64,000 nt of DNA from Acidiferrimicrobium sp. IK (lineage in GTDB: Bacteria > Actinomycetota > Acidimicrobiia > Acidimicrobiales > Palsa-688): positions 62,001-126,000 of the forward strand of contig NZ_JAIMCB010000008.1 of NCBI RefSeq assembly GCF_025499425.1, in the 5' to 3' direction. The notes below the pieces were generated by a model that was given only the letters and a program-made list of their open reading frames with translations, made no database searches and had not been told where the DNA came from. Below, one piece after another: positions 17,451 to 55,986 of this stretch (the stretch's first letter is position 1; every line of letters starts with the position of its first letter). A program made the position numbers and the translations under genes.

Positions 17451-18002
17451 ATGCCTGTCCTGACGCCCTCAGACGTGATCGCCGACGTGTGGACCGTTGA
17501 CCCGGAAGGTCACGGCGACGAGCGAGGACGGTTCTACGAGACCTACCGCCGGAGCTGGTTCCCGCTCGGCCGGGAGATGGTGCAGGGCAACCGGTCCGAC
17601 AAGGCGGCCGGGGCCGTGGTCGGCCTCCACTACCACCTGCACCAGGCCGACTACTGGCTGGTCCCCCGCGGGACCGCCCGAGTCGTCCTCCACGACCTGC
17701 GCCAGGGCTCCCCGACCGACCGGGCGACGGAGGTGCTCGAGCTGAGCGGCGACAACTGCCGGGGGGTGTTCATCCCGCCGGGAGTCGCCCACGGGTTCGC
17801 GTCGCTCACCGAGCTCACCGTCACCTACCTGGTGGACAGCTACTACAACCCCGAAGACGAGCTGGGGGTGGCCTGGGACGACCCGGCGATCGGAGCAGAC
17901 TGGGGGGTGAGCGACCCCATCCTCTCCGCCCGCGACCAGCACAACCCGGCCCGCGACGCCCTGGACCCGGGCCGCACTCCGTACTACAAGCTGCGGACCT
18001 GA
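17451..18002 (+). CDS. rmlC: dTDP-4-dehydrorhamnose 3,5-epimerase RmlC
   Basis: RmlC converts dTDP-4-keto-6-deoxyglucose to dTDP-4-keto-L-rhamnose, step three of dTDP-L-rhamnose synthesis. The 183-residue cupin has D-E-R-G-R-F-Y-E-T (about 24-32), the catalytic His region G-L-H-Y-H, the barrel motif I-P-P-G-V-A-H-G-F, and the C-terminal [15 protein letters not shown]. Length is typical. RmlA, RmlB and RmlD are not in this window. It precedes the decaprenylphosphoryl-arabinose genes, consistent with a cell-wall polysaccharide role, and a 4-epimerase-like gene for a rhamnose-derived sugar lies at 38.1 kb. Confidence 0.88.
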
Positions 18003-18058: not shown

Positions 18059-18988
18059 GTGAGCAAGGTCCTTCCTACGCCCGACGTGGCTGCTTCCGGC
18101 TCCGGGACGTCACTCGCGATCGGGTTGGTCCGCCTGGCCCGCCCGAAACAGTGGACCAAGAACGTGCTGGTCCTGGCCGCGCCCGGTGCCGCTGGGGTCT
18201 TGACCCACGGCGGTCCGCTCGGCCGGTCCCTGGCTGCGCTGGCGCTGTTTTGCGTCGTCGCGTCGGGCACCTACTTCCTGAACGACGCGCTCGACGTGGC
18301 CGCCGACCGGGCCCATCCGACCAAGCGGCTGCGCCCCATCGCGTCGGGCGTGGTGAACGTGCGCCTGGCCTACGCGCTCGGGGTGGGGCTGCTGGCGACC
18401 GGCGTTGCGCTTTCGGCGCTGATCAACTGGCACCTGGCCGTGGTCCTGGCGATCTACGTCGCCGTGCAGTTCGCCTACAGCTACTACCTGAAACACCAGC
18501 CGATCTACGACATGGCCGCGGTGGCGTCGGGGTTCGTGCTGCGGGCCATCGCCGGCGGCGTCGCCGCGGAGGTGGTCATCTCCCAGTGGTTCCTCGTCGT
18601 CGCCACCTTCGGCAGCCTTCTCATGGTCGCCGGGAAGCGGGTGGCGGAGCACGCCGAGCTCGGCCACGACCGCGGCGCGCACCGGGCCACCCTCGACGCG
18701 TACAGCTCGACGTTCCTGCGCACCGTGCTCGGCATCGCCGCCACCGGCGCCATCTTCGGTTACTGCCTGTGGGCTTTCAGCCTGCAGACGGCCCTGCAGC
18801 ACCACGCCGACCCGATCTGGTACCAGCTGTCGATCGTCCCGATGATCGTGGCGCTGCTGCGCTACACGTTCCTCGTCGAAAGCGGTCAAGGCGCGAAACC
18901 CGAGGACCTGGTGCTCTCCGACCGGTCCTTGCAGGTGCTCGGCTTGGTGTGGGCCGTGCTGTTCGCCCTCGGCGTCTACGCCAGCTGA
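18059..18988 (+). CDS. ubiA: Decaprenyl-phosphate phosphoribosyltransferase (UbiA superfamily)
   Basis: This membrane enzyme transfers 5-phosphoribose from PRPP to decaprenyl phosphate, the first step toward decaprenylphosphoryl-arabinose, the arabinose donor for arabinan. The 309-residue protein has the UbiA signature [10 protein letters not shown] followed by [12 protein letters not shown] near residues 80-105, a second polar motif around [10 protein letters not shown], and about eight to nine membrane segments. The H-P-x-K-R-x-R-P-I tail and the immediate DprE1/DprE2 neighbours separate it from quinone or heme prenyltransferases. The mycobacterial equivalent is Rv3806c. DprE1 starts 5 bases after the stop. 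Confidence 0.9.
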
Positions 18989-18993: not shown

Positions 18994-20409
18994 ATGACGT
19001 CGGACAGAGCCTTGCTGACCGGGTGGGGCCGGACCGCGCCGACCGCCGCGAGGATCATCGACGCGACGGACCCCGCCGCGGCCCGCCAGGCCGCGGCGGG
19101 CGCCGGACCGCGCGGCGTGATCGCCCGGGGCCTCGGCCGTTCCTACGGCGACGCCGCGCAAAACGCCGGCGGCGACGTGGTGGTCACCACCGGCATGGAC
19201 CGCATCCTCGACCTGGACCTGGAGACCGGCCGGGTCCGGGTCCAAGCCGGCGCCAGCCTGGACTGGCTGATGCGGACCCTGCTGCCCCTCGGCTTCTGGC
19301 CGCTGGTCACGCCCGGAACCCGCCAGGTCACGATCGGCGGCGCCATCGCGTCGGACATCCACGGCAAGAACCATCACCGCGACGGGACCTTCGGCGCCAA
19401 CGTCGAGTCGATGGTGATCGACACGCCCGGGGAGGGCGTGCTGACCGTGGCGCCCGACAAGGACCCGGACGCGTTTTGGGCCACCGCCGGCGGGATGGGC
19501 CTGACCGGGGTCATCCTCGAAGCCACGATGAGGCTCCTGCCGGTCGAGACCGCGATGATGCGAGTCGACAGCGAACGCCTCCGCGACCTCGACACGCTGA
19601 TGGCCCGGATGGTCGAATCCGACCGCGACCATCGCTACTCGGTGGCGTGGATCGACTGCCTGGCCCGGGGCGCCACGCTCGGTCGCTCGATCCTGGAGTT
19701 CGGTGAGCACGCCGCCCTCGACGACCTGCCGGCAGGCAAACGGTCCCCGGCCCGGGCGCTCGCGTTCGCGCCCTTCGACCGGGCGTCGGCCCCGCGGTGG
19801 GCGCCCAACGGCCTGCTCAACCGGTGGACCATCGCCGCGTTCAACGAGGTTTGGTACCGCAAGGCGCCGGCCAAGGCGGAGGGCCACCTGGTCCCGGCCA
19901 GCTTTTTCTTCCATCCCCTGGACATGGTGTCGGGATGGAACCGGATCTACGGCCGGCGGGGGTTCCTGCAGTACCAGATGGTGGTCCCCGACGGCGCCGA
20001 GTCGACCATGCGCCACGCCATCGAAGCGCTGAGCGACGCCCGCTGCGCGTCGTTCCTGGCCGTGTTGAAGCGCTTCGGGCCGTCCAACCCGGCGCCGCTG
20101 TCGTTCCCCTCCCCGGGCTGGACGCTGGCCCTCGACATCCCCGCGGCCGCCGCCGGCCTGGCTCCTTTGCTCGACCGCCTCGACGACATGGTCATCGAGG
20201 CCGGCGGACGGGTGTACCTCTCCAAGGACTCCCGCCTGCGCCCCGAGCTGCTGGAGGCGATGTACCCGAGGCTGCCGGAGTGGCGGGCCGTGCGGGACCG
20301 CCTCGACCCGGAGCGCCGCATGCAGTCGGACCTGGCCCGCCGCCTGCCGATCCTCGATCCCCTGCCGCGGGCCGGCTCGACACCCCCCAACGGAGCGTTC
20401 CCATCGTGA
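18994..20409 (+). CDS. dprE1: Decaprenylphosphoryl-beta-D-ribose oxidase DprE1
   Basis: DprE1 is the FAD enzyme that oxidises C2 of decaprenylphosphoryl-ribose. The 471-residue protein has the FAD-binding region [13 protein letters not shown] near 45-57, [16 protein letters not shown] near 113-128, and V-Y-L-S-K-D-S-R with the active-site Lys411. In mycobacterial DprE1 the benzothiazinone-reactive Cys387 lies in a P-G-W-x-x-C context; here the equivalent residue is Ala379 in P-G-W-T-L-A-L-D. Enzyme activity should be retained, because that Cys is not catalytic. The stop overlaps the dprE2 GTG as GTGA. Confidence 0.92.
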
Positions 20410-21163
20410 AAGACGCCCTCGGCGCCGTGCAGTCGGTCCTCGTCCTAGGCGGCGCGTCGGAGATCGGCGTGGCCATCGCAGCCGAGCTGGCCGGTCCCCG
20501 CCACGCGACTGTCGTCCTCGCCGGGCGCCATCCCGACGCGTTGGACGCGGCGGCCGCCCAGGTGCGCTCCGCCGGCGCCGGGCGGGTCGAGACCCTGCCG
20601 TTCGACGCGGCCGACACCGACAGCCACGAGGCGTTCGCCGAGAAGGCGTGGGCCCTCGCCGGTGACTTCGACGTGGTCGTGGTGGCGTTCGGGCTCCTCG
20701 GTGACCAGGCGGAAGCGGAGGCCGGCGGGGACAGCGCCGTGCGGGTCGCGCAGACCAACTACGTCGGGGCGGTGTCGATCTCGCTGGTGGTGTCGCGGCG
20801 GCTGCGGGCCCAAGGGCACGGCACGCTGGTCGTGCTGTCCTCGGTGGCCGGCGAGCGGGTCCGGCGGGCCAACTTCGTGTACGGCTCGACCAAGGCCGGC
20901 CTGGACGGCTTCGCCCAGGGTCTCGGGGACTCTCTGGCCGGTACCGGCGCCGGGGTCTTGATCGTCCGCCCCGGGTTCGTGACCGGCCGGATGACCGCCG
21001 GCATGGACACCGCCCCGATGGCCACCACCCCCGAAGCGGTGGCCAAGGCCACCGCATCAGCGATCGCGTCCGGCAAGGAGCTGATCTGGGTGCCAGGCAC
21101 CCTGCGTTTCGTGTTCGCCGCGTTCCGTCACCTGCCGCGCCCCCTCTGGCGGCGACTGCCCGT

Positions 21164-21167
<4 letters not shown>
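20406..21167 (+). CDS. dprE2: Decaprenylphosphoryl-2-keto-erythropentose reductase DprE2
   Basis: DprE2 is the SDR that reduces the DprE1 product with NADH to give decaprenylphosphoryl-D-arabinose. The 253-residue protein has the cofactor motif L-G-G-A-S-E-I-G near 14-21, a catalytic Ser in V-L-S-S-V-A-G-E-R and Y-G-S-T-K (YxxxK), and a C-terminal hydrophobic/basic stretch. The dinucleotide-binding variant and the two coupled overlaps, with dprE1 upstream and the HAD gene downstream (both GTGA), support the assignment over a generic SDR. Confidence 0.9.
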
Positions 21168-22811
<1,644 letters not shown>

Positions 22812-22848: not shown

Positions 22849-24846
22849 TCAGCCCTTGTGGCCGAAGATGTCGAGCGCCCGGCCCGGCCAGCCTGGGGCG
22901 CTGTTGCCGTTGCCGTAGCTCGGGGCGTCCCCGAACGGGTAGACGGTCCCGCCGGCGCCGAGGATCAGATAGCCGCCGCCGTCCGCGGTGGGCGCGACCG
23001 CTACGACGGTGTCGCTCACGCCGATACCCGGGAGCGACCCGTAGTACTTGGCGTCGCCGAACTGGAAGATCCCGCCGTCGCGGGCCACCAGCGTGTAGCC
23101 CTTGCCGTCCGCGGTCGGGACCATCCCGACGACCGGTTGGTTGAGGTGCACGTTGCCCGTCGACCCGTAGAACCCGGCGTCTCCGAAATCGAAGATCCCG
23201 CCGTCGGAGGCGACCAGCCAGTACCCCTTGCCGTCCGGGGTGGGAGCCATCCCCACGATCGGCTGGTTGAGATGCACGTTGCCGGTCGACCCGTAGAACC
23301 CGGCGTCACCGAACTGGAACACGCCGCCGTCACCGGCGAAGAGCCAGTAGCCGGCGCTGTCGGCGGTGGCGGTCATGCCGATCACCGGCCGGTTGAGGTG
23401 CACGTTGCCGGTCGACCCGTAGAAGCGGGCGTCGCCGAACTGGAAGATCCCCCCGTCGGCCGCCACCAGCCAGTAGCCGGCTTGGTCGGCGGTGGGGGCC
23501 ATGGCCAGGACCGGGGCGTTGAGGGCCGCTCCCTTCGTCGAGCCGTAGTTGACGGCCCCGCCGAAGGGGTAGACGCCGCCGTCGGAGCCGAGCAGCCAGT
23601 AACCGTCGAGCCCGCCGCTCGGGCGCCCGACGTTGGTCGGCGCGAACCAGTCGGAGCGCAGCCCCAGGTTGGCGGCGAAGCTGTCGCCGCTCACCGTCAC
23701 GGAGCCGGCGGTGCCGGACACGACCAGCGACTTGACCCGGCCGCCCAGGTCACCGAGACCGTTGCGGGCGGTGACGGTGATCGACTCGAAGGTCCCGATC
23801 GACGGCCACGCCGCCTCGATGCTCGACGCCGGGACCGTCTGGGACCAGTCGTGGTTGGGGTTGCCGGCCTGCGCCACGCCATCACCGTCGTCGACCGCGG
23901 CGGAGAACGCCCCGCCGGCCGTCCAGCCGCCGGTCGAAGATGAGAACTCGGTGAACGCCACCTGCCCAGGCGTGCCGCATGCGGCGGCGGTGCAGGTGCG
24001 CACCACACCGGCGGTCGCTTGTACCGCGGCGTCGCTGTAGGTGGTGTAGGCGCTGTTGGTCGGGTTGCCCGCAGCGTCCTGGTCGCCGTCGTAGACCTGA
24101 CAGTAAGTGGTGTCGCAGATCGGCCCACCGGCCGCTCGGACGTAGGAGAGGGCGTAGGAGCGGGCGGCGACCGCCTGGGCTTGGAGAGCGGCAGGGCCGT
24201 TGGTGCCCCACGACGCCGGCGACTCGGCCGGTACCACGCCGGCGACGTAGTCCTCGATACCCACGGTGTTCCAAACCTGGGCGTAACCGCCGATCGGCGC
24301 AGCCTTCACCACGATGTTGCCCTTGTAGGCCCGGGTACCCCCCGGGATGGCGAGCACGATCGGGCCGGCGCCGCTCGGCACGAGGGTGACGTCGCCGCTT
24401 TGGGCGGGGGCGCCGTTGACCGACAGCTGCGAGCCGTTGACCCGGGTGACGGTGACCGGGCCGGTCGCGACCTGGGCGCCCCCGACGTAGGCGGTGGCGC
24501 CCTGCGCGGTGATCGTCGACGCGTTGTCGAGCTCGTCGAGGCGGACATCGATGGTCTGGGCGGTGCTCACGGCGGAGGCCGCCGTGCCGCCGTAGTACTG
24601 GTTGAGGATCTGGTTGACGTTCCAGCCCGTGAGGGCGTAGCCGTACGCCCCGTACTGGCCCATCCCCCGGCCGTGGCCGTAGCCGTGGCCGACCAGCGCC
24701 AGCTCCGACGGCACGGAGGTCGCGGCGACTCCGGCGGAGGCGGCGGCAGGCGTCGCCGCGGAGGCCGGCCCGGCGGCGAGGGGGGCGGCGGCGACGAGCG
24801 CCGCGGTCAGCACAGCAGCACCAGTGACGAAACGAGGCACGCGCAA
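22849..24846 (-). CDS. SpoIID/LytB-domain secreted protein with six C-terminal 42-residue repeats
   Basis: The 665-residue protein begins with a signal peptide rich in Ala (about 1-30). The SpoIID/LytB domain follows: G-H-G-Y-G-H-G-R-G-M-G-Q-Y-G-A-Y-G near 53, a beta-rich segment, then V-P-A-E-S-P-A-S-W and A-L-Q-A-Q-A-V-A-A-R-S-Y-A-L near 200-225. SpoIID domains are lytic enzymes acting on stem-peptide-free peptidoglycan, so a cell-wall role is likely. Residues about 415-665 are six tandem repeats shared with three other proteins in this window. GGAG lies 7 bases before the ATG. The gene is downstream of the subtilisin-like gene on the same strand, with a hairpin between. Confidence 0.88.
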   Translation of the reverse strand: MRVPRFVTGAAVLTAALVAAAPLAAGPASAATPAAASAGVAATSVPSELALVGHGYGHGRGMGQYGAYGYALTGWNVNQILNQYYGGTAASAVSTAQTIDVRLDELDNASTITAQGATAYVGGAQVATGPVTVTRVNGSQLSVNGAPAQSGDVTLVPSGAGPIVLAIPGGTRAYKGNIVVKAAPIGGYAQVWNTVGIEDYVAGVVPAESPASWGTNGPAALQAQAVAARSYALSYVRAAGGPICDTTYCQVYDGDQDAAGNPTNSAYTTYSDAAVQATAGVVRTCTAAACGTPGQVAFTEFSSSTGGWTAGGAFSAAVDDGDGVAQAGNPNHDWSQTVPASSIEAAWPSIGTFESITVTARNGLGDLGGRVKSLVVSGTAGSVTVSGDSFAANLGLRSDWFAPTNVGRPSGGLDGYWLLGSDGGVYPFGGAVNYGSTKGAALNAPVLAMAPTADQAGYWLVAADGGIFQFGDARFYGSTGNVHLNRPVIGMTATADSAGYWLFAGDGGVFQFGDAGFYGSTGNVHLNQPIVGMAPTPDGKGYWLVASDGGIFDFGDAGFYGSTGNVHLNQPVVGMVPTADGKGYTLVARDGGIFQFGDAKYYGSLPGIGVSDTVVAVAPTADGGGYLILGAGGTVYPFGDAPSYGNGNSAPGWPGRALDIFGHKG
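22852..23604 (-). repeat. Six-copy 42-residue repeat module, copy set A (SpoIID-like protein)
   Basis: Six units of about 126 bases each encode G-Y-W-L-V-A[11 protein letters not shown], then [12 protein letters not shown] and V-G-M-x-x-T-x-D. Units 1, 5 and 6 are the most divergent and units 2-4 are close to consensus. The last unit ends the protein. Confidence 0.9.
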
Positions 24847-24959: not shown

Positions 24960-27026
24960 TCAGCTGATGCCGACCACCGGAGCCGGGATCGGGGAACCGC
25001 CGGCGGACCCCTGGAACTGGGCGTCACCGAAGTCGAAGATCCCGCCGTCGGACGCCGCCAACCAGTAACCGGCGCCGTCGGAGGTGCCCTCCATCGCGAC
25101 GATCGGCCGGTTCAGCGCGACGTTGCCGGTCGAGCCGTGGAAGGTGGCGTCACCGAACTGGAAGATCCCGCCGTCGGAGGCCACCAACCAGTAGCCGCCG
25201 CCGTCAGGCGTGGCGGACATCCCGACCACCGGCTTGTTTAGGTGGACGTTGCCGGTCGACCCGGAGAACCGGGCGTCGCCGAAATCGAAGATCCCGCCGT
25301 CGGACGCCACCAGCCAGTAGCCCTTGCCGTCGGGGGTCGCGGCCATACCGACGATCGGCTGGTTGAGGTGCACGTTGCCGGTCGACCCGTAGAACCGGGC
25401 GTCGCCGAACTGGAAGATCCCGCCGTCGGAGGCCACCAGCCAGTAGCCGCCGCCGTCAGGCGTGGCCGCCATCCCCACGATCGGCTGGTTGAGGTGGACG
25501 TTGCCCGTCGACCCGTAGTAGCCGGCGCTGCCGAACTGGAAGACGCCTCCGTCGGTGGCGGCCATCCAATAGCCGGTGTGGTCCCGCTTGTCGGCGATTG
25601 TTACGATCGGCTTGTTGAGGTGCTGGCCGGTCAGGGAACCGAAGTCGGGTGCCGCCCCGAAGATGTACACCGACCCGTCGGATCCGGCCAGATGGTAGCC
25701 CTCGTAGACCCCTCCGGACGCCGCGGCCTGCACCGCCTTGCCGACGTTGAGCACCCCGCCGTTGATCGGGTTGCCCAGCTCCGGGCTGGCGGTCTCGCGC
25801 AAGATCGACGTCACCTGCGCCGCGGACAGGCTGGGGTTGGCCGCGATGACCAGCGCTGCCGCGGCCGCCACGTGCGGTGTGGCCATCGACGTGCCGGTGA
25901 GCGTCGAGTACGAGGCGGTCCCGGTGTTCCAGGTGGAGACGATGCCCTCGCCGGGAGCCGAGATGTTGGCCGCGGCGCCGAACTCGGAGAACGACGAGGT
26001 CACGTCGTTCGCGTTGACCGACGCCACCGACAGCACGCCGGGGTAGCTGGCCGGGTAGGTGTCACCGGTGACGCCGTCGTTGCCGGCCGCGGCGACCACG
26101 ACGACGTTGTGGGCCTCCGCGTACTGCACCGCGGCCTGGGTGTCGGGATCGGGCCCGCAGTTGGTCGGGTCGGTGCTGCAGGCGCTGTTGCCGAGGGACA
26201 TGTTGATCACCCGGGCGCCGGCGTTGACCGCGTCGTAGATGCCGGTCACCAGGTCCGCGGTCGAGCCGGTGCCGGTGCCGTCGAGGACCTTGTAGGTCTC
26301 GACGTGGGTGTTGATCCCGAGGCCGGCGACCCCGGTGCCGTTGTTGGTCGTGGCGCCGATCGTCCCCGTCACGTGAGTCCCGTGACCGGATTCGTTGCTG
26401 CCGGTCACCGGCGGCAGGTCGGTGTCGGGCGAGGTGGCCCCTGCGCAGAGGGTGTCGTCGCCGGCGCACAGGTTCGGGCCGACGGTGACGTTGCCGAGGT
26501 CCTGGTTGAGCCCGTCCACCCCGGTGTCGAGCACCGCGACGGTGACCGCGCTGCTGCCGTTGGTCACCGCCCACGCGGCCGGCGCCCCGATCTGGCGGAG
26601 GTCAGACTGCGTGACCTGCACCGACCCGGGGCCGCCCCCGTCGAGCGCGGTGCAACCCGACGGCTGGTAGCAGGCGTCGTTGGGGCTGGTCACGTTGGTG
26701 GCGTGCACCGTGCGGACCTGGGTGGCGTACTCGACGCCCGGGGCGGCGCGGAGCTGCGCCAGGGTGGCGGCCACCTCCCCGTCTGGGACGTGGAGGGTCC
26801 AGCGCCCGCCCGGCAACCCTGCGGGGGTGGATCCGGGCAGCCCGCCCAGCACCGACGACGAGTGGACCGCAGAAGCGCCGGCCAGCTTGACGACGAGCTG
26901 CACATCGGGGACCTTCACCGGTGTCGCCCCGGCCGCGCTGGCCGTAGCGAAGGGGGCTAGCAGGGCCAGGCCCATCACCGCCGCGACGCCCACCCGCCTG
27001 GCAGTCACCAATGGCACTCGTTGCAC
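24960..27026 (-). CDS. Secreted subtilisin-like (S8) serine protease with six C-terminal 42-residue repeats
   Basis: Counted from GTG 27026 (GAGGGG 8 bases upstream) the protein has 688 residues. It has a signal peptide (about 1-33), an inhibitor-like propeptide (about 40-110) and a peptidase S8 domain with the full triad: Asp167 in V-A-V-L-D-T-G-V, His215 in S-G-H-G-T-H-V and Ser380 in G-T-S-M-A-T-P-H. The oxyanion Asn316 is present in A-A-A-G-N-D-G. Residues from about 442 to the end are six tandem repeats shared with three other proteins. It should be exported and self-processed; whether it matures the other repeat proteins is speculation. It is divergent from clpP across about 200 bases with no other gene. 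Confidence 0.9.
24963..25700 (-). repeat. Six-copy 42-residue repeat module, copy set B (S8 protease)
   Basis: The first unit ([10 protein letters not shown]) is divergent and the next four are near consensus. The last unit is cut to 36 residues at the C-terminus, ending P-V-V-G-I-S. The unit length is 126 bases throughout, visible as near-identical DNA lines 126 bases apart. Confidence 0.9.
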
Positions 27027-27892: not shown

Positions 27893-29068
27893 GTGGTTGG
27901 CAGGCTGGCGATCGTGCCCCCGCGCTTCGGGGACACCGTGGTGGGCGGGTCCGAAGCGGTTTCGAGAGAGACCGCCCTCGGGCTGGCCTCGAGGGGCTGG
28001 GACGTCGAGGTCCTGACCACGACGGCCCTCGACCACTACGCCTGGGGCAACGACCTGCCGGAGGGCGAAGAGGAGGTTGGCGGTCTGCGGGTCCGCCGTT
28101 TCCGGATGGTCCACCATGGGGGGCGGGCGGGCGAAGCCATCCAGCGCCGCCTGACGGCGGGGATCATGCCGAGCCTGGACGAGCAGATCACATGGCTGAG
28201 CTGGCGGTTCCAGGTGCCGGGCCTGTACCACCACCTGCTGCGCTACGCCGACAGCTACGACGCCGTGGTGTTCTCGCCGTACCTGTTCTGGACCACGACC
28301 GTCTGCATGCCGGCAGTGGCCGAGAAGGCGGTGGTGGTCCCGTGCTTGCACGACGAGGTCTACGCCCGTCTCGACGTCATCCGCCCGGTCGTCGCCGATG
28401 CCGCCTCTGTGTGGTTCCTCTCCGAGCCCGAGCACCTCTTGGCCCACCGGCTGGGCCCGGTGGCGCCCCGCCACACCGTGACCGGGTCGGGGGTGGCGGT
28501 CCCGCAAGGCTACGACCCCGACGGGTTCGTGGCCCGCCACCGGCTGCGCCGCCCGTTCCTGCTCTACGCCGGTCGACGCGAGCGCGACAAAGGCTGGGAC
28601 GCGCTGGTCGACATGTTCGCGGTAGCGGTACGGGAGGTGGGCGTGGACATGGACCTGGTGACCTTCGGCGTGGGCGAGGTGGACCCCCCGGCGTCGATCG
28701 CCGACCGGGTGATCGACCTGGGCTTCCTGCCCGACGAGGAGCGCGACAGCGCCTTCGCCGCCGCCACCGCCTACGCGCAGCCCAGCCGGATGGAAAGCTT
28801 CTCCCGGACGGTGATGGAGGCTTGGCTCGCCGGCTCCCCGGTGCTCTCGGTGGCCGGCAGCGAGGTCGTCAACTGGCACATCGAGCGCTCAGGTGGGGGC
28901 CTCACCTACTCCGACGGGTTCGAGCTGGGCGAGGCGTTGCACTGGGTGGCGGCAAACCCCAACGGCCGGGCCGAAATGGCCGCCGCCGGGCGGCGCTACG
29001 TGCTCGACAACTGCACCTGGCCGGTCGTGCTGGATCGGATGGAGGCCGACCTGCGTGCCTGGACATAA
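27893..29068 (+). CDS. Glycosyltransferase family 4 protein
   Basis: The 391-residue protein has the GT-B fold: an N-terminal G-G-S-E-A-V-S-R-E-T-A-L-G-L donor/acceptor domain, then in the second half L-Y-A-G-R-R-E-R-D-K-G-W-D, L-G-F-L-P-D-E-E-R and the retaining signature S-R-M-E-S-F-S-R-T-V-M-E-A-W near residues 300-315, where E-x-x-x-x-x-x-E spans the nucleotide-sugar site. It probably adds a sugar to a lipid-linked or surface glycan in the cytoplasm. Acceptor and donor cannot be read from sequence. Confidence 0.88.
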   Translation: MVGRLAIVPPRFGDTVVGGSEAVSRETALGLASRGWDVEVLTTTALDHYAWGNDLPEGEEEVGGLRVRRFRMVHHGGRAGEAIQRRLTAGIMPSLDEQITWLSWRFQVPGLYHHLLRYADSYDAVVFSPYLFWTTTVCMPAVAEKAVVVPCLHDEVYARLDVIRPVVADAASVWFLSEPEHLLAHRLGPVAPRHTVTGSGVAVPQGYDPDGFVARHRLRRPFLLYAGRRERDKGWDALVDMFAVAVREVGVDMDLVTFGVGEVDPPASIADRVIDLGFLPDEERDSAFAAATAYAQPSRMESFSRTVMEAWLAGSPVLSVAGSEVVNWHIERSGGGLTYSDGFELGEALHWVAANPNGRAEMAAAGRRYVLDNCTWPVVLDRMEADLRAWT

Positions 29069-29813
29069 CCCGGTGGCCGCCAGCCCCGGCGAGCCGCTCG
29101 GCCCCCAGGTGCCCGGCACCACCACGCTGGTCTACGGCAGCTACCACCCGGTGCCCGGTCCGGCTGCGTCGGCCACCCGGGCTGAGGTGCTGGCGGCGTG
29201 GACGGCGGGCGAGGTGGTCACGGTGGTGTCCCCCCGCCCGTCGGCCGCGCACCTGGCAGTGCGCATCGCCGGCCCGCTGGCCGCCCGGCGGCTCCACAAC
29301 GTTCGGCGCAAGACCGGCGCCGGCGGCCTGGTGTTCTGCGCGGAAGCTGGCGTTCCGCTGGTCGCCGGGCGCGGGCCACTGGGCTTGGCCAACGCCGTTC
29401 TCACCGCCGGGCTCCTAGCCCGGGCCTTCGGCGCCTTCGAGGAGGTGACGCTGGTGGTCACCGGCGATCTGGGCGTCCCCGCATGGGTGCTGGCCCCGCT
29501 TCGGCGGGCCGCCACCGAGGTGCGCGGCCCCCATTCCGCCGCCGGGCCGCCCCCCACCCCCCGCCCCAGGGCCACCGGGGAGGACGGGGCGGTGGCCGAG
29601 GGACGACGCGCAGTACACGACTACGCAGCCGGCGACCGCCTCCGGGCCGGCGTGGCACAGGTCTCGCCCCTAGGCCCGCCCGAGATCCCGTGGAAGTTGC
29701 GGGCGCGGGGGATCGCCGGGGTGGCCGCCCGGCGGCTGCTCGGCTCCCGGGCTCCGGCGGCCCGCTCGGCTTTGCGAGCGTTGCGCTCGGCCGCCGCCGC
29801 ACGCAGCCGCTGA
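29055..29813 (+). CDS. Hypothetical protein linked to glycosyltransferases
   Basis: I do not recognise a family. The start is GTG 29055, overlapping the previous gene by 14 bases, or GTG 29073 just after its stop. The protein of about 252 residues has T-L-V-Y-G-S-Y-H-P-V-P-G-P near its start, alternating hydrophobic strands and helices (V-V-T-V-V-S-P-R, L-V-F-C-A-E-A-G-V, V-T-L-V-V-T-G-D-L) that look like half of a Rossmann/GT-B fold, and a basic Ala/Arg-rich C-terminal helix. It may be a degenerate or partner subunit of the preceding glycosyltransferase. Confidence 0.6.
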   Translation: MPGHNPVAASPGEPLGPQVPGTTTLVYGSYHPVPGPAASATRAEVLAAWTAGEVVTVVSPRPSAAHLAVRIAGPLAARRLHNVRRKTGAGGLVFCAEAGVPLVAGRGPLGLANAVLTAGLLARAFGAFEEVTLVVTGDLGVPAWVLAPLRRAATEVRGPHSAAGPPPTPRPRATGEDGAVAEGRRAVHDYAAGDRLRAGVAQVSPLGPPEIPWKLRARGIAGVAARRLLGSRAPAARSALRALRSAAAARSR

Positions 29814-29836
29814 CCGCTCGGTCGGCGAAGGCCGGC

Positions 29837-31063
29837 TCAGCCCTCGGGCGGCCCCCCCTCCCAGGTTGTGTCCACCCCGGCCCAGCGGTCCCAAACTGCC
29901 CGAGGATCGACGGTTCGCTGCCGGCGCATCCTCCGGCGGGACCAAAGCGCCGCGGGCGCGGCGCTCAGAACTGCCCGACGGACCCCGTCGAGGGGGCCGG
30001 CGAGAGCGCGACGGCGCAGCTCCGCGGCGGCGACCGCGGCCGGGGCGTTGCGCAGCAGGCACAGGGTCCGGTTGCGCTCGGCCAGGTAGCGAACCCAGGA
30101 GGAGACCTGTCCGCCGCTGGTCGCCGACACCCGGTGCTCGACCGTTGCGCCGGCGTCATAGAGGACCCGCATCCCGAGGAGACGGGCCCGCCAGCACCAG
30201 TCACCGTCCTCGTAGTAGGCGAAGAACTCGTCGGCCAGCGGGCCGACCGCGGCCCAGGTAGCGCCCCGGGCCACCAGAGCCGTGCCGCTGGCGAAGAAGC
30301 ACTCCCGGCTGGTGTCGAAGCGGCCGTCGTCGGGGGTCTCGGCACCGAAGTCGCCGAGGACGCCGTCGCGGCGCAAGTACGAACCGGCCTTATTGACCAA
30401 CCGGGTCACGGGGCCGGAGGCGACGGGTCGGCCGTCGACCTCAACAGGCTCCGGGCTGGGACCGGGCACCGGGACGTAGAACGGCGCGGAGGGCACCGTC
30501 CAGCGCCACCGCTCCCCGGCTTCGCCCTCCATGGCGTGGAGGCCTCCGCCGGCGGCCTGCTCGAGCACCTCCCGGCCGCCGGCGCGCACCGAGCGCAGCC
30601 GGGTTCCCAGGACGCGGTGGTCGCCGGGCGCCGCGGTGCGGGCGTCGCCGAGGCGGACCTGCTGCCACCACCCGGCCATCAGCACCTTGGGCCCGACCGC
30701 GGCGACCCCGGGGTCCTCCAGCGCGGCAGCGGCGCTCGCCACCCAGTCCGGGCCCGCCACTGCGTCGTCGTTGAGCAGCGCCACCAGGGCGCCCCTGGCG
30801 TGGCGCAGCCCCACGTTGACGCCGCCCGCGAAGCCCAGGTTGGTCTCCGAGCGCAGGACCCGGGCGCCGATTGGCGCGGCGAGCGCCGCCGCAGCCCGCC
30901 CGGCGCTGCCGTTGTCGATGCAGAGCACCTCGACCCCGCCCGCCAGACGCTGACCCAAGGCCGACTCCAGGCACGGGGCCAGCCAGGCACCGGGCTGGTA
31001 GGACAGCACGATGACCGTGGCCGCGGGCCGGGCCGGGCCCGTCCCGGCGGCGACCTCGCGCAC
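29837..31063 (-). CDS. Glycosyltransferase family 2 protein
   Basis: The 408-residue inverting GT-A enzyme has V-I-V-L-S-Y-Q-P at about 17-24, C-I-D-N-G-S near 48, N-L-G-F-A-G-G-V-N near 75, the donor-binding L-L-N-D-D-A (DxD-like) near 97, and E-D-G-D-W-C-W-R-A-R near 265. These match rhamnosyl/mannosyl-type GT2 enzymes of O-antigen and wall polysaccharides. It starts with GTG 31063 and lies downstream of the small coiled-coil gene at 31123 with a 59-base gap, probably in the same transcript. It converges with the preceding hypothetical gene. Confidence 0.87.
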   Translation of the reverse strand: MREVAAGTGPARPAATVIVLSYQPGAWLAPCLESALGQRLAGGVEVLCIDNGSAGRAAAALAAPIGARVLRSETNLGFAGGVNVGLRHARGALVALLNDDAVAGPDWVASAAAALEDPGVAAVGPKVLMAGWWQQVRLGDARTAAPGDHRVLGTRLRSVRAGGREVLEQAAGGGLHAMEGEAGERWRWTVPSAPFYVPVPGPSPEPVEVDGRPVASGPVTRLVNKAGSYLRRDGVLGDFGAETPDDGRFDTSRECFFASGTALVARGATWAAVGPLADEFFAYYEDGDWCWRARLLGMRVLYDAGATVEHRVSATSGGQVSSWVRYLAERNRTLCLLRNAPAAVAAAELRRRALAGPLDGVRRAVLSAAPAALWSRRRMRRQRTVDPRAVWDRWAGVDTTWEGGPPEG

Positions 31064-31122
31064 CGCCGACTGCCTCCCGCTCGCCGTCGCCCTGGACCGG
31101 GGGAACGCTTCAGCGGGAGGCG

Positions 31123-31440
31123 TCAGCGGGGGGCATCCAGGGGCAGTGCGCCCTGCGCCGGCGGCCCCGCCGCGATCCCGCCGGCGGCCGCCAGACGGTC
31201 GAGGATCGAGCGCAGCCGGGCCAGCTCCTCGCTGAGGGCGCCGACCTCGGCGGAGAGCCGGGCGAGGGTGCGCCCGAACACCTCGGCGACGTCGTCGGCG
31301 GCGTCGCCGTGGTCCCCGACGATCCGTCGCAGCTCGGCGATCTCTTCCCTGGTCACCTGCTCCGCGGCCCCGACCCGCTCGTCAACGAGCTGACGGATGG
31401 GGTCCAGCAGGTAGCGGTCACGGGCCTGCCTGGCGTCCAC
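31123..31440 (-). CDS. Small coiled-coil protein in glycosyltransferase operon
   Basis: This 105-residue protein is mostly alpha-helical heptad sequence (V-D-E-R-V-G-A-A-E-Q-V, then L-A-R-L-S-A-E-V-G-A-L, then L-A-R-L-R-S-I-L-D-R-L) ending in a Pro/Ala tail. I recognise no enzyme domain. GTG 31440 is chosen because TAGTGT lies 8 bases upstream; longer readings extend into the divergent gene. It is one of several small coiled-coil proteins scattered among the glycosyltransferases here and may act as a scaffold or partner, which is inference. Confidence 0.6.
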   Translation of the reverse strand: MDARQARDRYLLDPIRQLVDERVGAAEQVTREEIAELRRIVGDHGDAADDVAEVFGRTLARLSAEVGALSEELARLRSILDRLAAAGGIAAGPPAQGALPLDAPR

Positions 31441-31481
31441 GGGGGCCAACACTACCCGGGGCGTCGCTAGGGTGATCCGCC
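31441..31481. promoter_or_regulatory. Compact divergent promoter pair
   Basis: Within 41 bases, TAGTGT on the minus strand (31454-31449) serves the gene starting at 31440 and TAGGGT on the plus strand (31468-31473) serves the gene starting at 31482, each 8 bases from its GTG. The two transcription units must compete for polymerase or share activation. Confidence 0.45.
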
Positions 31482-32192
31482 GTGCGCGACGCCAGCCGAC
31501 CAGACGACCGCTGGGCCGCCGGCCTGCAGGCCCTCGCCGGCGACCGCCCGGTGGTGATCGTGGAAGACCCCGACGCGACGAAGCCCGAGCCGGCGCCGGC
31601 GGGCAGCCTGGTAGTGCTGAGCGCCGCGCTCGAGCGGATGGCGGCCGAGCAGCGTCCGGCGGTGGCGCGAGCGCTCGGCGGCGCCGACGCGGTGCTGCTG
31701 TGCCCGCCGGCGGGTGCCGGAGTGCGGGCCGTCTCCCCTCAGTGCCTGCCGGAGTGGGTGGCCGCCTTCGCCGCGGAAGGCCTGTGGCGGGTGCCTGGCG
31801 CCGCCCTCGGGTGGCTGACGTCGTGGGGCGTGCTACTCGAGCGCGCCCCACTCGACCCCGCCGGCCTGGCCCTGCGCTACGAGCGGCTGCTCCTGGCCGC
31901 GACCGGCCAGCGACGGGCCGACGCCGACACCGCCCGGGTCCTGGCGCTGACCGACCGGGTCATCGGCTTGGAGGCCGAATTGGCTGAGGCCGCTTACCGG
32001 CGTGACCAGGCGCAGCTCGAACGGGATGCGACGGTGGAGGCCGAGCGGGCCACGGCGGCCGCGCTGCGCTCGGCCACGGCCGCCCTCGACGCGATGCGGG
32101 CCTCGGCGTCGTGGCGGATCGGCCAGGGCGTCGTCGGTCCGCTCCGGCGGGCCGCGGGCAGCGTGCGCCGGCGGGGCGCACCGGGAAGCTAA
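31482..32192 (+). CDS. Hypothetical protein with C-terminal coiled coil and basic helix
   Basis: The 236-residue product has an alpha/beta N-terminal half (V-V-I-V-E-D-P-D near 22, L-L-C-P-P-A-G-A-G near 72, F-A-A-E-G-L-W-R-V-P near 97) that could be a degenerate Rossmann domain, then a long coiled coil (about 150-205). It ends with M-R-A-S-A-S-W-R-I-G-Q-G-V and an amphipathic basic helix. That 'RAS-W' plus basic-helix ending is often seen in polysaccharide-cluster proteins and resembles the tail of the 41189 gene product. The function is unknown. Coordinates follow GTG 31482. Confidence 0.6.
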   Translation: MRDASRPDDRWAAGLQALAGDRPVVIVEDPDATKPEPAPAGSLVVLSAALERMAAEQRPAVARALGGADAVLLCPPAGAGVRAVSPQCLPEWVAAFAAEGLWRVPGAALGWLTSWGVLLERAPLDPAGLALRYERLLLAATGQRRADADTARVLALTDRVIGLEAELAEAAYRRDQAQLERDATVEAERATAAALRSATAALDAMRASASWRIGQGVVGPLRRAAGSVRRRGAPGS

Positions 32193-32227
32193 GGCGCCCC
32201 CGGCGCGGCCCGCGCCATCAGGCCGCC

Positions 32228-32243
32228 TACCATCGTCGCCCAC
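32228..32243 (+). promoter_or_regulatory. Candidate promoter of the tandem glycosyltransferase gene
   Basis: TACCAT (32228-32233) lies 10 bases before ATG 32244, slightly far for a leaderless start; the overlapping CATCGT at 7 bases is an alternative. Confidence 0.3.
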
Positions 32244-33833
32244 ATGCCGACGCCGACCGACGCTCCCGGCCGCACCCCCGAGGTGTCGATCCTGGTGCCG
32301 GTGTTCGACACGCCCGAGCCGTTCCTGAGGGCCATGGTCGCCTCGGTGCGGGCCCAGACCTTCGCCGACTGGGAGCTGGTACTGGTCGACGACGGCTCGA
32401 GCGCCCCGCACGTCGGCCCGGTTCTCGCGGAGCTGGCCGCCGCGGACGAGCGGATAGTCGTGGACCGCTTGGCGGCCAACGCCGGGATCGTCGCCGCGTC
32501 CGCTCGGGCTTTGGACCTGGCGTCGGGACGGTGGGTGGCACTGGTCGACCACGACGACGAGCTGGCCCCCGAAGCCCTGGCCCGCTGCATGGAGGTGATC
32601 AGCGCCGACCCTCTCGTCGACATGGTCTACACCGACGAGAATCGCCGCGGCCCGGGCGGGGACATCCCTATGCGCAAGCCGGACTGGTCCCCCGAGCGGC
32701 TACGGGCCCAGATGTACACCGGGCACCTGACGGCGTTGCGCCGCTCTCTGGTGTCGGAGGTGGGGGGGTTCCGCCCCGGGTTCGACGGATCCCAGGACTA
32801 CGACCTGGTGCTGCGAGCCGGGGAGCGAGCCCGGCGGGTGGCCCACATCCCCGAGGTGCTCTACCACTGGCGGTTGGTGCCGGGCTCGGTGGGCCAAGTG
32901 GGGAGGCCGGAGGTGTTCGCGGCCGCCCGGCAGGCGGTGGCCGACCACCTGGCGCGCACCGGTGCGCCCGGCACGGTAGAGCAGGTCGACCCGACCGGCG
33001 TGTACCGGATCCGCCGGCCGGTGCTGGGCCATCCGCTGGTCAGCCTGGTCATCCCGACCCGAGGCAGCAGCGGAACGGTCGGAGGACGCGAGAGGGTGTA
33101 TGTCGTGGAGCTGCTGCGGGGGCTTGTAGCCCGCTGCTCGTGGGCCCGCTGGGAGGCGGTGGTCGTCGCCGACACCGCCACCCCGCCCGCCACCGTGGAC
33201 GCCCTGCGGGCGGTGGCCGGCGACCGCCTCACCCTGGTGCCCTTCGACGAGCCGTTCCACTTCGCCCGCAAGATCAACCGGGGGGCCCTGGCTGCGGCCG
33301 GCGACTACCTGGTGGCGCTCAACGACGACATGGATCTCGTCACCCCGGACTGGCTCGAGACGATGCTGGGCCTCGCCCAGCAGCCCGACGTGGGCATGGT
33401 CGGCCCGCTGCTGACCTTCGAGGACGGCACGATCCAGCACGGAGGCCTGATGTTCCGGCGCCGCACGCCCGACAACATCGGGCACGGGATGGGCGGCGAC
33501 GAGCGAGGCCCGATGTTCGGTTTCGGCGTCGAGCGGGAGGTGTCGGGCTGCACGGGGGCCTGCGCGCTGCTGCCCACCGGCGTGTTCCACGAGGTCGGGG
33601 GCATGTCCGAGCGGTTCGCGGTCAACTACAACGACGTGGACCTTTCGTTCAAGGTCCGAGCCAGCGGGCGGCGGATCCTCTGGACGCCCTTTGCCCACCT
33701 CCGCCACTTCGAGTCGAAGTCCCGCACCGGCGGAGTCGGAGCATCTGAGGTGGCGGCCATCCTGGGCCGCTGGGGCCGCCGCTACGAGGGAGAGGACCCC
33801 TACTGGCCGGCGGCACCGGCCGGGCCGGACTGA
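32244..33833 (+). CDS. Two-domain family 2 glycosyltransferase
   Basis: The 529-residue protein contains two GT-A modules in tandem. The first (about 12-235) has S-I-L-V-P-V-F-D-T, L-V-D-D-G-S and V-D-H-D-D-E-L. The second (about 265-500) has S-L-V-I-P-T-R-G, L-N-D-D-M-D and N-Y-N-D-V-D-L-S-F-K. Such double enzymes can add two linkages or act as polymerising transferases in O-antigen and galactan-type synthesis. Either domain could be regulatory only. The gene is convergent with the pair at 33.9-36.3 kb. Confidence 0.88.
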   Translation: MPTPTDAPGRTPEVSILVPVFDTPEPFLRAMVASVRAQTFADWELVLVDDGSSAPHVGPVLAELAAADERIVVDRLAANAGIVAASARALDLASGRWVALVDHDDELAPEALARCMEVISADPLVDMVYTDENRRGPGGDIPMRKPDWSPERLRAQMYTGHLTALRRSLVSEVGGFRPGFDGSQDYDLVLRAGERARRVAHIPEVLYHWRLVPGSVGQVGRPEVFAAARQAVADHLARTGAPGTVEQVDPTGVYRIRRPVLGHPLVSLVIPTRGSSGTVGGRERVYVVELLRGLVARCSWARWEAVVVADTATPPATVDALRAVAGDRLTLVPFDEPFHFARKINRGALAAAGDYLVALNDDMDLVTPDWLETMLGLAQQPDVGMVGPLLTFEDGTIQHGGLMFRRRTPDNIGHGMGGDERGPMFGFGVEREVSGCTGACALLPTGVFHEVGGMSERFAVNYNDVDLSFKVRASGRRILWTPFAHLRHFESKSRTGGVGASEVAAILGRWGRRYEGEDPYWPAAPAGPD

Positions 33834-33867
33834 ACCTTCCCGACACCAGGGCCGCCGCGGCTCGCCC

Positions 33868-35181
33868 TCAGCTCCGCAGCCGCCGGAGCGCGCCCTGCAC
33901 CAGGCGGCGCGCCAGCACCGTGGCGTCGTGCGCCCACGGCGAGCCGGCAGGCGCCGGCGGCCGGGCCACCCGGTCAGGAGCGGGGCGGGGGTCGGCGCAG
34001 AACGCGGCCAGCGGGGCCGCCACCCGATCCCAGCGGAACCGTTCCGCCACCGCAGCGAAACGCTCCGCGTCGGGGCGGTCGGGGGAGGCGAGCACCGAGC
34101 GCAGCGCCGAGCGGATGCCGTCCACGTCCCCGGGGGCGACCGCCTGCCCGAGGCCCTCGCCGGCCACCAGGTCGGCCAGCACGTCGCCTCCGGTCAGCAC
34201 CATCGGCAGCCCGGCCCACAGGTAGTCGAGGACCCGGGTCCGGAACGAGAAGCGCGCCTCGATGTGGTCGAGGTGGGTGCTCACCCCCACGTCGGCGTCG
34301 AGCAGGTACGAGGCGCGCTGCTCGTAGGGCACCCAGCCCTCGTTGAAGAACACGTGCCGGTCGCGCAGCCCCAGGTCCAGGGCCAGCCGGCGGGTCTCGG
34401 CGGCCATCCGCATGGCCGGGACCGCCGGGTTGGGATGGCCCATACCCAGAAACACGAGGCGCACGTCGGGGACGTCGGAGCGCAGCAGGTCGACCGCCCG
34501 GACCAGGGAAAGCGGATCGAACCAGTTGTAGACCCCGCCGGCCCACAGCAGCACCGGGTCGCCGGCTCCGATGCCGGCGATCCGCTCCCGCAGCCTCGGC
34601 CCGGTACGCACCGCCGGAGCTGCCGACAGCCCGAAGGGCACCACTGCGATCAGGGCGTCCATCCCCGGCCCGGCGTCGTAGGTGTAGGGATTGACTCGGC
34701 CCGCAGACGCCAGCGACCCGAGCCAGAAGTCCCGCTGGCGTTCGGACGCGCAAAGAAAGAAGTCCCCGCGCCGCAGGTGGCGGTCGATGGCCGAGCGCAT
34801 CGCGTCGACCCGGCGGTCCCGGCCGGCCCGGGTGGCTTCCTCGCCGCTCGCAGCAGCCGGCTCGAGGTTCTCCAGGTGGTAGGGGTCGTACAGGTCGACC
34901 ACCACCGGGATCGGTGCAGCCTCGATCTCCGGCCACTCGTGGAGCACCCCGGCGGGGACGATCGCCACATCGGCCGAGGACAGAAGCCCCGCCCGACCCG
35001 GCCGGTCCGCGGCCACGACCCGCATGCCGGGGTGGCTGCGGGTGACACCGGCGGTCCCGGCAAGAGTCACGTCGTGGTCTGCGGCGAGGACCTCGGCCAG
35101 GTGCCACGCCCGGATGGCCGGCCCGGGCATCCGGTCCTGCAGCGGGTCGGTGGCGACCACCAGCACCCGCCGGCGGGTCAC
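33868..35181 (-). CDS. Glycosyltransferase family 4 protein
   Basis: The 437-residue GT-B protein has V-L-V-V-A-T-D-P-L at its start, Y-D-P-Y-H near 100, L-L-W-A-G-G-V-Y-N-W-F-D-P near 225, R-L-V-F-L-G-M-G, H-V-F-F-N-E-G-W-V-P and R-V-L-D-Y-L-W-A-G-L-P in the C-terminal domain. The GTG start at 35181 overlaps the upstream glycosyltransferase stop as GTGA, so it is translationally coupled to it. The canonical E-x7-E motif is replaced by a less common form, so the donor may be unusual. Confidence 0.85.
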   Translation of the reverse strand: MTRRRVLVVATDPLQDRMPGPAIRAWHLAEVLAADHDVTLAGTAGVTRSHPGMRVVAADRPGRAGLLSSADVAIVPAGVLHEWPEIEAAPIPVVVDLYDPYHLENLEPAAASGEEATRAGRDRRVDAMRSAIDRHLRRGDFFLCASERQRDFWLGSLASAGRVNPYTYDAGPGMDALIAVVPFGLSAAPAVRTGPRLRERIAGIGAGDPVLLWAGGVYNWFDPLSLVRAVDLLRSDVPDVRLVFLGMGHPNPAVPAMRMAAETRRLALDLGLRDRHVFFNEGWVPYEQRASYLLDADVGVSTHLDHIEARFSFRTRVLDYLWAGLPMVLTGGDVLADLVAGEGLGQAVAPGDVDGIRSALRSVLASPDRPDAERFAAVAERFRWDRVAAPLAAFCADPRPAPDRVARPPAPAGSPWAHDATVLARRLVQGALRRLRS

Positions 35182-36302
35182 GCCGGTAGCGGGCCGGGCC
35201 CGCCGCCTTCCAGCCACCCCTCAATGACCTCGATGGTGCGAGCCGACGTCACGGGCAGGGCGTAGGCGGACGCCCGGGCCCGGCCGGCCTTGACCAGGCC
35301 GGCGCGCCGGGCCTCGTCGGCCAGCAGTCCGGCCACTGCGTCGGCGACTTCCAGAGGGTCCTTCGAGTCGAGGAGCACCCCCGCGTCGGCGACGGTTTCG
35401 GGGAGCGCGGCGGCCCGGTAGGCCACCACCGGCACGCCCAGCTCGAAGGCCTCGAGCACCGGGACGCAGAAGCCCTCGTGCTCGGACATGCACACGAACA
35501 CGTCGGCGGTGGCAAAATGGGCCAGGAGGGCCGGGGTCGGCAAGCCGTCGAGGATCTCCACCGCGTCGGTCACGCCGAGCTGGGCGGACAGGCGGCGCAA
35601 GGAATGCAAGTAGCGCGGAGAGGTGACGCCGCCGACCAGCGTAAGGCGGGCTCGGGGGTCGTGAAACCGGCGGTACAGGGCCAGCGCCCCGATCAGGTGG
35701 TGCTGGCACTTGTTGGGCGCGATGCGCCCGACGAACAGCCACGTAGCCCCTCCACCGTCGCGCCGGCGCTGCAACCGGGCGAGCACCGCAGGGTCGGGAT
35801 CGTCGTGATATCGGTCCAGGTCGACCAGGAGCGGGGCGGTGGCCGTCGAGGGGTAGCCGGCCGCGATCAGCTCCGTCTCGTTGTAGCCCGACACGGCCAG
35901 CGCCCGGGCCGCCACCGGCGCCAGCGCCGCCATCTCCTGGCGGGCGGTGACCATGCTGGCGGCCGCCTCGGGCTCCCAGCGAGCGAAATACCGGGCCGGA
36001 GTGATGTTGTGATAATTCGCCCACACCGGCTGCCCGGCCGCGGCTGCCTCGGCCAGCCAGGCGGCCATTGGGCTGCCGGTGGACAGCTGGTAGAGCAGCA
36101 CCCGTCCCTCGCTGCGGGGCGGGCACTCCCGGTAGGGGCGGGCGTCGGCTCCGACGCGGGGGTCGATGTGCTCCCCCCAGATGTCAGAGGGAAAGCCCCG
36201 GGCCCGCAGCAGGCGGCGCAGCTCCAGAACGTGGGATCCGATGGCATCGAAGGGGGCGAATCCGGGGACGAACTGGTCGATGCGCTCGACAGGGACGCTC
36301 AC
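35178..36302 (-). CDS. Glycosyltransferase family 4 protein (WbdA/WcaK-like group)
   Basis: The 374-residue protein has a GT-B fold. Its N-terminal half includes G-S-H-V-L-E-L-R-R-L-L and Y-Q-L-S-T-G-S-P, the family feature for binding a lipid-linked acceptor. The second half has F-V-G-R-I-A-P-N-K near 195 and S-E-H-E-G-F-C-V-P-V-L-E-A-F near 275 (E-x7-E). It resembles mannosyl- and rhamnosyltransferases of ABC-transporter-dependent polysaccharides. GTG 36302 overlaps the preceding coiled-coil gene stop (GTGA), and the stop overlaps the next start, making a three-gene coupled set downstream of the Wzt ATPase. Confidence 0.88.
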   Translation of the reverse strand: MSVPVERIDQFVPGFAPFDAIGSHVLELRRLLRARGFPSDIWGEHIDPRVGADARPYRECPPRSEGRVLLYQLSTGSPMAAWLAEAAAAGQPVWANYHNITPARYFARWEPEAAASMVTARQEMAALAPVAARALAVSGYNETELIAAGYPSTATAPLLVDLDRYHDDPDPAVLARLQRRRDGGGATWLFVGRIAPNKCQHHLIGALALYRRFHDPRARLTLVGGVTSPRYLHSLRRLSAQLGVTDAVEILDGLPTPALLAHFATADVFVCMSEHEGFCVPVLEAFELGVPVVAYRAAALPETVADAGVLLDSKDPLEVADAVAGLLADEARRAGLVKAGRARASAYALPVTSARTIEVIEGWLEGGGPGPLPA

Positions 36303-36742
36303 CGGCGCTCGAGGTCCTCGACGCGGGCCCGCAGCGCCGCAAGCTCGGCGATGGTGGCGGCGCTGGTGCCCTCGAGGCGGTCGGTGCGCTCGATGAGCGC
36401 GACGCCCAGCTCGGCGGTTGCCTTGCCCAGGTCGGCCACCTGCTCGCCCAGGTACCGCAGGTACCAGCCGGCCAGACGCTTGACCCCAACCTTCAGGTAC
36501 CGGGCGGCGGGCGCGACGGAGGCCACCGGCGCGTCGACGTCGACCGCGGCGGCATGCTCCACCAGGGCCAGGGCGGCCTCGGCCTCCCCGCTGTCGGTCG
36601 TGCGCGCCGAGAGCCGGTCCATGGCGGCGCGCACCTCGGCCACGTAGCGGTCGTCCTCGGCGCGGCGCTGGTTCACCCGGGCCGCCGCCGGGTGGGTCGC
36701 CGACCCACGGTCAGGAGGCGGCCGGAGCGTCGCGCCGATCAT
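36299..36742 (-). CDS. Small coiled-coil protein between ABC ATPase and glycosyltransferases
   Basis: This protein of about 147 residues starts at ATG 36742, overlapping the ABC-ATPase 3' end by 32 bases. It has a charged helix (R-R-A-E-D-D-R-Y-V-A-E-V), a segment with a basic aromatic patch (Y-L-K-V-G-V-K-R-L-A-G-W-Y-L-R-Y-L) that could touch a membrane, and a C-terminal heptad region ending A-A-L-R-A-R-V-E-D-L-E-R-R. I recognise no enzymatic domain. Tight coupling to Wzt and two glycosyltransferases suggests a structural role in the synthesis-export complex. This is inference. Confidence 0.6.
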   Translation of the reverse strand: MIGATLRPPPDRGSATHPAAARVNQRRAEDDRYVAEVRAAMDRLSARTTDSGEAEAALALVEHAAAVDVDAPVASVAPAARYLKVGVKRLAGWYLRYLGEQVADLGKATAELGVALIERTDRLEGTSAATIAELAALRARVEDLERR

Positions 36743-55951: not shown

Positions 55952-55986
55952 GCGGACCTCCGCCACGTCGGGTGCTGGCGTGAACG

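Follow-up and report, generated by a model that had tools for sequence, protein, structure and literature searches.

The nearest described relative of the enzyme treated here is mycobacterial DprE1 (Rv3790 of M. tuberculosis, and the M. smegmatis structures). According to the available text of PMC6128881, benzothiazinones inhibit this enzyme covalently through Cys387, to which their nitroso form becomes bound, and this cysteine is dispensable for DprE1 activity. Natural resistance has been attributed to Ala at this position in M. avium and to Ser in M. aurum, and the same source, in its available parts, describes the cysteine as highly conserved among orthologs of various Actinobacteria (PMC3206020). 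The benzothiazinone-resistance substitutions listed for M. tuberculosis are C387G, S, A, T and N (PMC8152995, excerpt). Inhibitors of the TCA1 series contact His132, Lys367, Phe369, Asn385, Ser228 and Trp230; Y314C is a resistance mutant and Y314A remains TCA1-sensitive (PMC5659129, excerpt). At the level of the pathway there are two systems to compare with, the mycobacterial synthesis of arabinogalactan and the three-component systems for extracytoplasmic pentofuranose addition of Kelly et al. 2024 (PMC11127046). In the available sections of that paper the systems come with HAD phosphatases, and DprE1/E2 homologs are found in candidate arabinofuranose systems. No published survey of residue 387 across the DprE1 family was found in a literature search that was thin on subscription journals.

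The window, by which is meant the whole stretch of 64,000 nucleotides that was analysed, comes from Acidiferrimicrobium sp. IK, a member of the Acidimicrobiales, an actinobacterial order other than the mycobacterial one; the nearest named DprE1 matches also point to this order. Genes for a UbiA-type synthase, DprE1, DprE2 and a HAD phosphatase, and then gmd, form one tight same-strand run adjoining a polysaccharide locus:

17451-18002, plus strand: dTDP-4-dehydrorhamnose 3,5-epimerase-like protein, RmlC family (PF00908 142.3 bits; TIGR01221 115.4 bits, below the cut-off of 155.75)
18059-18988, plus strand: UbiA-type decaprenyl-phosphate phosphoribosyltransferase (DPPR synthase), directly upstream of dprE1 (NF008978 372.8 bits, cut-off 207; PF01040), with an alternative start at 18125 from the gene caller
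18994-20409, plus strand: dprE1 (NF053785 580.4 bits, cut-off 500; phmmer 397 bits against M. tuberculosis DprE1; fold matches)
20128-20130, plus strand: codon GCC, which specifies Ala379, the counterpart of M. tuberculosis Cys387 (pairwise alignment)
20406-21167, plus strand: DprE2, the 2'-keto reductase partner; the first 4 bases of its gene are also the last 4 of dprE1 (NF053786 343.2 bits, cut-off 250)
21164-21799, plus strand: HAD-IB phosphatase, whose gene shares its first 4 bases with the end of dprE2 (TIGR01490 142.2 bits, cut-off 98.3)
21831-22811, plus strand: GDP-mannose 4,6-dehydratase, gmd (TIGR01472 448 bits, cut-off 415)

By family membership the 471 amino acid product of the plus-strand reading frame at 18994-20409 is a genuine DprE1 ortholog. 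NF053785 is the NCBIfam equivalog for decaprenylphosphoryl-beta-D-ribose oxidase, and the next best family gave 75 bits. The phmmer score was obtained against the M. tuberculosis chain of 4kw5/21gq, to which 206 of 446 aligned residues (46%) are identical in the pairwise alignment; the score against M. smegmatis DprE1 was 402 bits. An AlphaFold model made from 29 sequences (mean pLDDT 84.6) has M. tuberculosis DprE1 4p8t_A as its best fold match (TM 0.85/0.88, rmsd 4.0), which points to the VAO-type FAD fold of the solved DprE1 structures. Rows 1-49 of the best 50 PDB matches are DprE1 entries, counting 4pfa and 4pfd, whose titles give M. tuberculosis only. The Pfam domains of the product, FAD_binding_4 and ALO, occur in lactone and sugar oxidases generally and the same genome has three further, weaker paralog matches, both of which speak for a VAO-fold sugar oxidase with another specificity, and with it the drug question would be void. 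This reading is highly improbable and was rejected on the profile score above the curated equivalog cut-off, on the adjoining DprE2 and DPPR synthase genes, each over its own cut-off, and on the fold. The identification as DprE1 in the first-pass annotation is confirmed.

That annotation had also placed an alanine at the site of the benzothiazinone-reactive cysteine, and the alignment confirms it: P-G-W-T-L-A-L-D aligns without gaps to P-G-W-N-I-C-V-D of M. tuberculosis, so that Ala379 corresponds to Cys387. In the AlphaFold model Ala379 lies within strand 375-383. Twelve residues of the M. tuberculosis enzyme are kept in the pairwise alignment, i.e. Tyr60, Gly117, His132, Lys134, Trp230, Leu317, Gln334, Gln336, Lys367, Phe369, Tyr415 and Lys418. 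With Gly117 and Phe369 set aside, the equivalents of these carry the same letter in 241-247 of the 247 rows of the survey described below; Phe369 is kept in the window protein but in just 209 of the rows. Tyr60, His132, Lys134, Gln334, Gln336, Lys367 and Lys418 are conserved residues of the active site. Five pocket positions differ, from Ser228 in M. tuberculosis to Val217 in the window protein, Tyr314 to Phe306, Phe320 to Val312, Asn385 to Thr377 and Cys387 to Ala379.

For the survey of these positions the window gene was pooled with 80 named loci, which are the top 80 among 582 confirmed matches to the window DprE1, and with the DprE1 loci found in a sample of 396 genomes of the phylum, in 150 genomes of the order of G377 and in 148 from the order to which the window belongs. 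The survey's 270 loci were used except for the duplicate copies of the window gene (L001, L209), the weaker paralogs (L002-L004) and 19 loci that represent other families (L149-L167), and the DprE1-like fragments of G626 and G652:C149 stand outside it. The 247 rows gave 240 distinct proteins after removal of 7 duplicates, and the sampling is uneven, with 36 distinct named rows from the Streptomycetaceae. Named Streptomyces loci with full-length DprE1 are evident among the best 80 of the 582 matches, in contrast to PMC4608729, which in its available text gives Streptomyces and Actinomadura as genera without a DprE1 ortholog, on the basis of a single record for each (S. somaliensis and A. madurae). 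Family f38 of the survey is the mycobacterial one, by the match of its member L085 to M. tuberculosis DprE1 (911 bits), and f102 belongs to that order as well.

Alanine is the most common state at position 379, with 193 Ala, 22 Cys, 17 Thr, 7 Ser and 1 Asn among the 240 distinct proteins. Outside f38 and f102 the numbers are 183 Ala, 13 Thr, 4 Ser, 1 Asn and 1 Cys of 202, and all 36 distinct Streptomycetaceae rows have Ala. In the window's order (the window with the same-family and same-order rows) Ala is found in 74 of 86 distinct proteins, Thr in 8, Ser in 2 and Asn and Cys in one each. Cysteine is present in 12 of 20 rows of f38, in 9 of 18 rows of f102 and in L109, i.e. 21 of the 22 cysteines belong to two families of one order. 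L109 (genome G374, of the window's order and one of three f10 rows) has an independent natural cysteine with the codon TGC in the motif GWTLCVD, which is otherwise non-mycobacterial; this DprE1 may be an example of an enzyme from another order than the mycobacterial one that reacts with benzothiazinones.

At positions 217, 306, 312, 377 and 379, Val-Phe-x-Thr-Ala is found in at least 168 of the 209 rows outside f38 and f102, while all 20 f38 rows have Ser-Tyr-x-Asn followed by Cys (12) or Ala (8) and the nine f102 rows with cysteine have Ser-Tyr-x-Met-Cys. Since the first combination is common outside the two families, and f38 and the cysteine rows of f102 differ from it at several positions, Ala379 is to be seen, on these alignments, as part of a lineage-wide pocket type and not as a lone substitution. 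The window DprE1 is an ordinary family member, because alanine is the usual state of the family.

Parsimony on a FastTree phylogeny of the 240 rows, rooted on two divergent rows (L147 and L148), gave Ala at the root and five changes between Cys and the rest. Cysteine was gained on a 32-row branch that takes in the whole of f38 (20 rows) and 12 of the 18 rows of f102, in L109, and again in L170 after a loss. An IQ-TREE quick tree of 98 of 145 rows, with the residue column excluded, gave three changes. The eight f38 rows with Ala are derived from a Cys ancestor by parsimony, and this, with the alanine to which natural resistance is attributed in M. avium (PMC3206020, excerpt), illustrates that the same residue can arise by loss. 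Ala379 could in the same way have taken the place of an ancestral cysteine in recent times, as a change of the resistance type. This origin is extremely improbable and was rejected, as Ala dominates in the window's order and is the root state. Furthermore, Ala379 is accompanied by Val217, Phe306 and Thr377, whereas the eight mycobacterial Ala rows retain Ser-Tyr-x-Asn, and among the changes reconstructed on the 240-row tree the window lineage does not pass through Cys. What the window enzyme has in common with the naturally resistant enzymes, those with Ala in M. avium and Ser in M. aurum, is the missing cysteine at the trapped position, and there is no sign of drug exposure. Ala is the usual state at position 379/387 and probably the ancestral one, and Cys appears to have arisen later, in part of the mycobacterial order and independently in one other case.

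For the benzothiazinones, the known covalent adduct cannot form at residue 379, which has no thiol, and the window enzyme should lack the covalent mode at this residue. The covalent insensitivity predicted in the first-pass annotation stands as far as the missing thiol is concerned (PMC6128881, excerpt), and so does its parallel with cysteine-less, naturally resistant mycobacteria (PMC3206020, excerpt). The departure from a cysteine norm that it implied does not, with Ala in 193 of 240 proteins and at the root. It also overlooked the neighbouring drug contacts that differ, namely Val217 for Ser228, Phe306 for Tyr314 and Thr377 for Asn385. Because the drug-contact positions 228, 314 and 385 of M. 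tuberculosis are changed in the window protein, sensitivity to non-covalent inhibitors cannot be assumed, and these may also behave differently.

The window DprE1 has two other cysteines, Cys222 and Cys351, which correspond to Ala233 and His359 of M. tuberculosis. Cys222 is three residues past the pocket residue Trp219, and Cys351 precedes the strand 356-361 that bears Val357, Lys359 and Phe361 in the AlphaFold model; cysteine is also common at both positions in the family (74 and 82 of the 247 rows, respectively). If one of them were within reach, benzothiazinones would bind covalently after all, which is considered very unlikely, as neither Ala233 nor His359 is named as a contact in the available inhibitor-contact descriptions, including the available text of PMC6128881 and PMC5659129.

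Counting a match anywhere in the retrieved DNA, DprE2 was found in 129 of the 136 loci whose downstream flank is long enough. For UbiA the corresponding figure, among loci with a sufficient upstream flank, is 115 of 136, and both were found in 103 of 128. HAD matches were few, in about 15 of the 144 loci, of which many have short flanks. Among close relatives of the window genome the cassette is already patchy. Of five genomes of its own family (f1) in the sample of its order, G000 and G625 have DprE1 over the cut-off and G579, G657 and G686 have weak matches only.

The region of about 27.9-50.5 kb encodes glycosyltransferases, a Wzt-like ATPase, methyltransferases, an acyltransferase and GT-C-like membrane proteins:

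27893-43505, no strand assigned: surface polysaccharide locus with GT1/GT2 glycosyltransferases, Wzt-like ATPase, NAD-dependent sugar epimerase/dehydratase and FkbM methyltransferase; several reading frames in it have no Pfam match
36711-37913, minus strand: Wzt-like ABC ATPase with Wzt C-terminal domain, polysaccharide export (PF14524, PF00005; best NCBIfam matches TagH/Wzt-like, below cut-offs)
44731-46671, minus strand: hydrophobic reading frame of 646 amino acids, candidate GT-C glycosyltransferase (no Pfam or NCBIfam match)
47646-49049, minus strand: PMT_2-type GT-C-like membrane protein (PF13231 27.8 bits, cut-off 26.1)
49375-50514, plus strand: PIG-V/GT87-like GT-C membrane glycosyltransferase (PF04188 25.1 bits, cut-off 22.4; PF09594 22.2 bits, cut-off 25)

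No permease was found among the family matches of the called genes adjoining the Wzt-like ATPase at 36711-37913. A further long reading frame of 590 amino acids (54194-55966, minus strand) has no Pfam or NCBIfam match and lies, like 44731-46671, beside the polysaccharide locus. A SpoIID-domain protein (22849-24813, minus strand) and a subtilase (24960-26993, minus strand) share a C-terminal repeat region with 62-66% identity over 204-253 residues.

The window's own genome gave no match to Emb (PF04602), AftA (PF12250) or the N-domain of GlfT2 (PF17994), with a positive C. glutamicum control for each; as the completeness of the genome is 94.66%, the missing sequence could hold a family that gave no match. 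It does contain an AftD-like GT-C protein (PF11847, 290.2 bits, G000:C1:208866-210851) and four GT87 matches, three of them over the cut-off. Canonical arabinogalactan synthesis was rejected on the three missing matches, though AftD-like and GT87 proteins are present. Among the 396 phylum genomes, PF11847 is over the cut-off in 41 of the 56 with DprE1 over its own cut-off against 17 of the 340 others, a comparison uncorrected for shared ancestry. Emb is found in 14 of the 56 DprE1 genomes, all of f38, and in one of the 340 others (G340). The 42 genomes outside f38 with DprE1 over the cut-off have PF11847 in 27 cases and PF04602 in none. With no PF11847 match in 15 of the 56 DprE1 genomes and no DprE1 over the cut-off in 17 of the 58 PF11847 genomes, AftD-like enzymes are not obligatory users of the DprE1 product. 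G340, which is of the window's class, is the only genome outside f38 among the 396 with PF04602 over the cut-off (L149, 104 bits) and has no DprE1 match.

Taken together, with a probability of roughly 0.85, the window enzyme is a DprE1 ortholog outside the mycobacterial order, the cassette makes polyprenyl-phospho-arabinofuranose for a glycan not built by Emb and AftA, and Ala379 is the usual and probably ancestral residue, Cys387 being later. In the pathway that we infer from sequence, the UbiA protein would convert PRPP to polyprenyl-phospho-ribose-5-phosphate and the HAD phosphatase would take off the 5'-phosphate. DprE1 would then oxidize C2' with FAD and DprE2 would reduce the product with NAD(P)H, giving polyprenyl-phospho-beta-D-arabinofuranose. 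A membrane GT-C enzyme, for example the AftD-like protein whose gene lies elsewhere in the genome, would transfer the arabinofuranose outside the membrane. Most likely the polyprenyl-phospho-arabinose is destined for a glycan other than mycobacterial arabinogalactan, and the acceptor would be a surface glycan other than the arabinogalactan built by Emb and AftA. Ala379 would be the ancestral residue at a position unneeded for catalysis, and Cys387, which arose later in part of the mycobacterial order, would merely happen to be the benzothiazinone trap site.

Compared with mycobacterial DprE1, the window enzyme shares the equivalog family, the fold, the core pocket and the DprE2 partner, and differs at the five pocket positions given above. 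The genome differs from the mycobacterial arabinogalactan pathway in its missing Emb, AftA and GlfT2 N-domain matches and resembles it in the AftD-like protein. The likeness to the three-component systems (PMC11127046, excerpt) lies in the UbiA-type polyprenyl phosphoribose synthase, the HAD protein, DprE1/E2 and the ABC-type polysaccharide locus nearby; the difference is that HAD and UbiA are separate genes in the window. From this parallel the HAD-IB protein, which matches the broad subfamily TIGR01490 next to a UbiA synthase over its own cut-off, is a candidate 5'-phosphatase of polyprenyl-phospho-ribose-5-phosphate. The GT-C-like candidates, those in the window and the AftD-like protein elsewhere, are none of them tied to an arabinose donor.

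The survey corrects a view of DprE1 centred on the mycobacteria, as the cysteine called highly conserved in the available text of PMC3206020 is a minority state of limited lineages (22 of 240). The resistance substitutions in the excerpt of PMC8152995 are, Gly apart, the natural states found at the position, in keeping with weak functional constraint on the site. The cassette also points to a use of polyprenyl-phospho-arabinose independent of Emb outside the mycobacterial order. A wider reading, held tentatively and with somewhat less than even odds, is that most DprE1-bearing actinobacteria have the Val-Phe-x-Thr-Ala pocket in place of the mycobacterial Ser-Tyr-x-Asn-Cys. With it, and free of Emb and AftA, they would supply arabinofuranose to a surface glycan not yet described, AftD-like enzymes or other members of GT-C making the transfer. 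If this is true, Ala, Ser, Thr and Asn (not Gly) would be the natural repertoire of the DprE1 family and cysteine a late, lineage-specific weakness.
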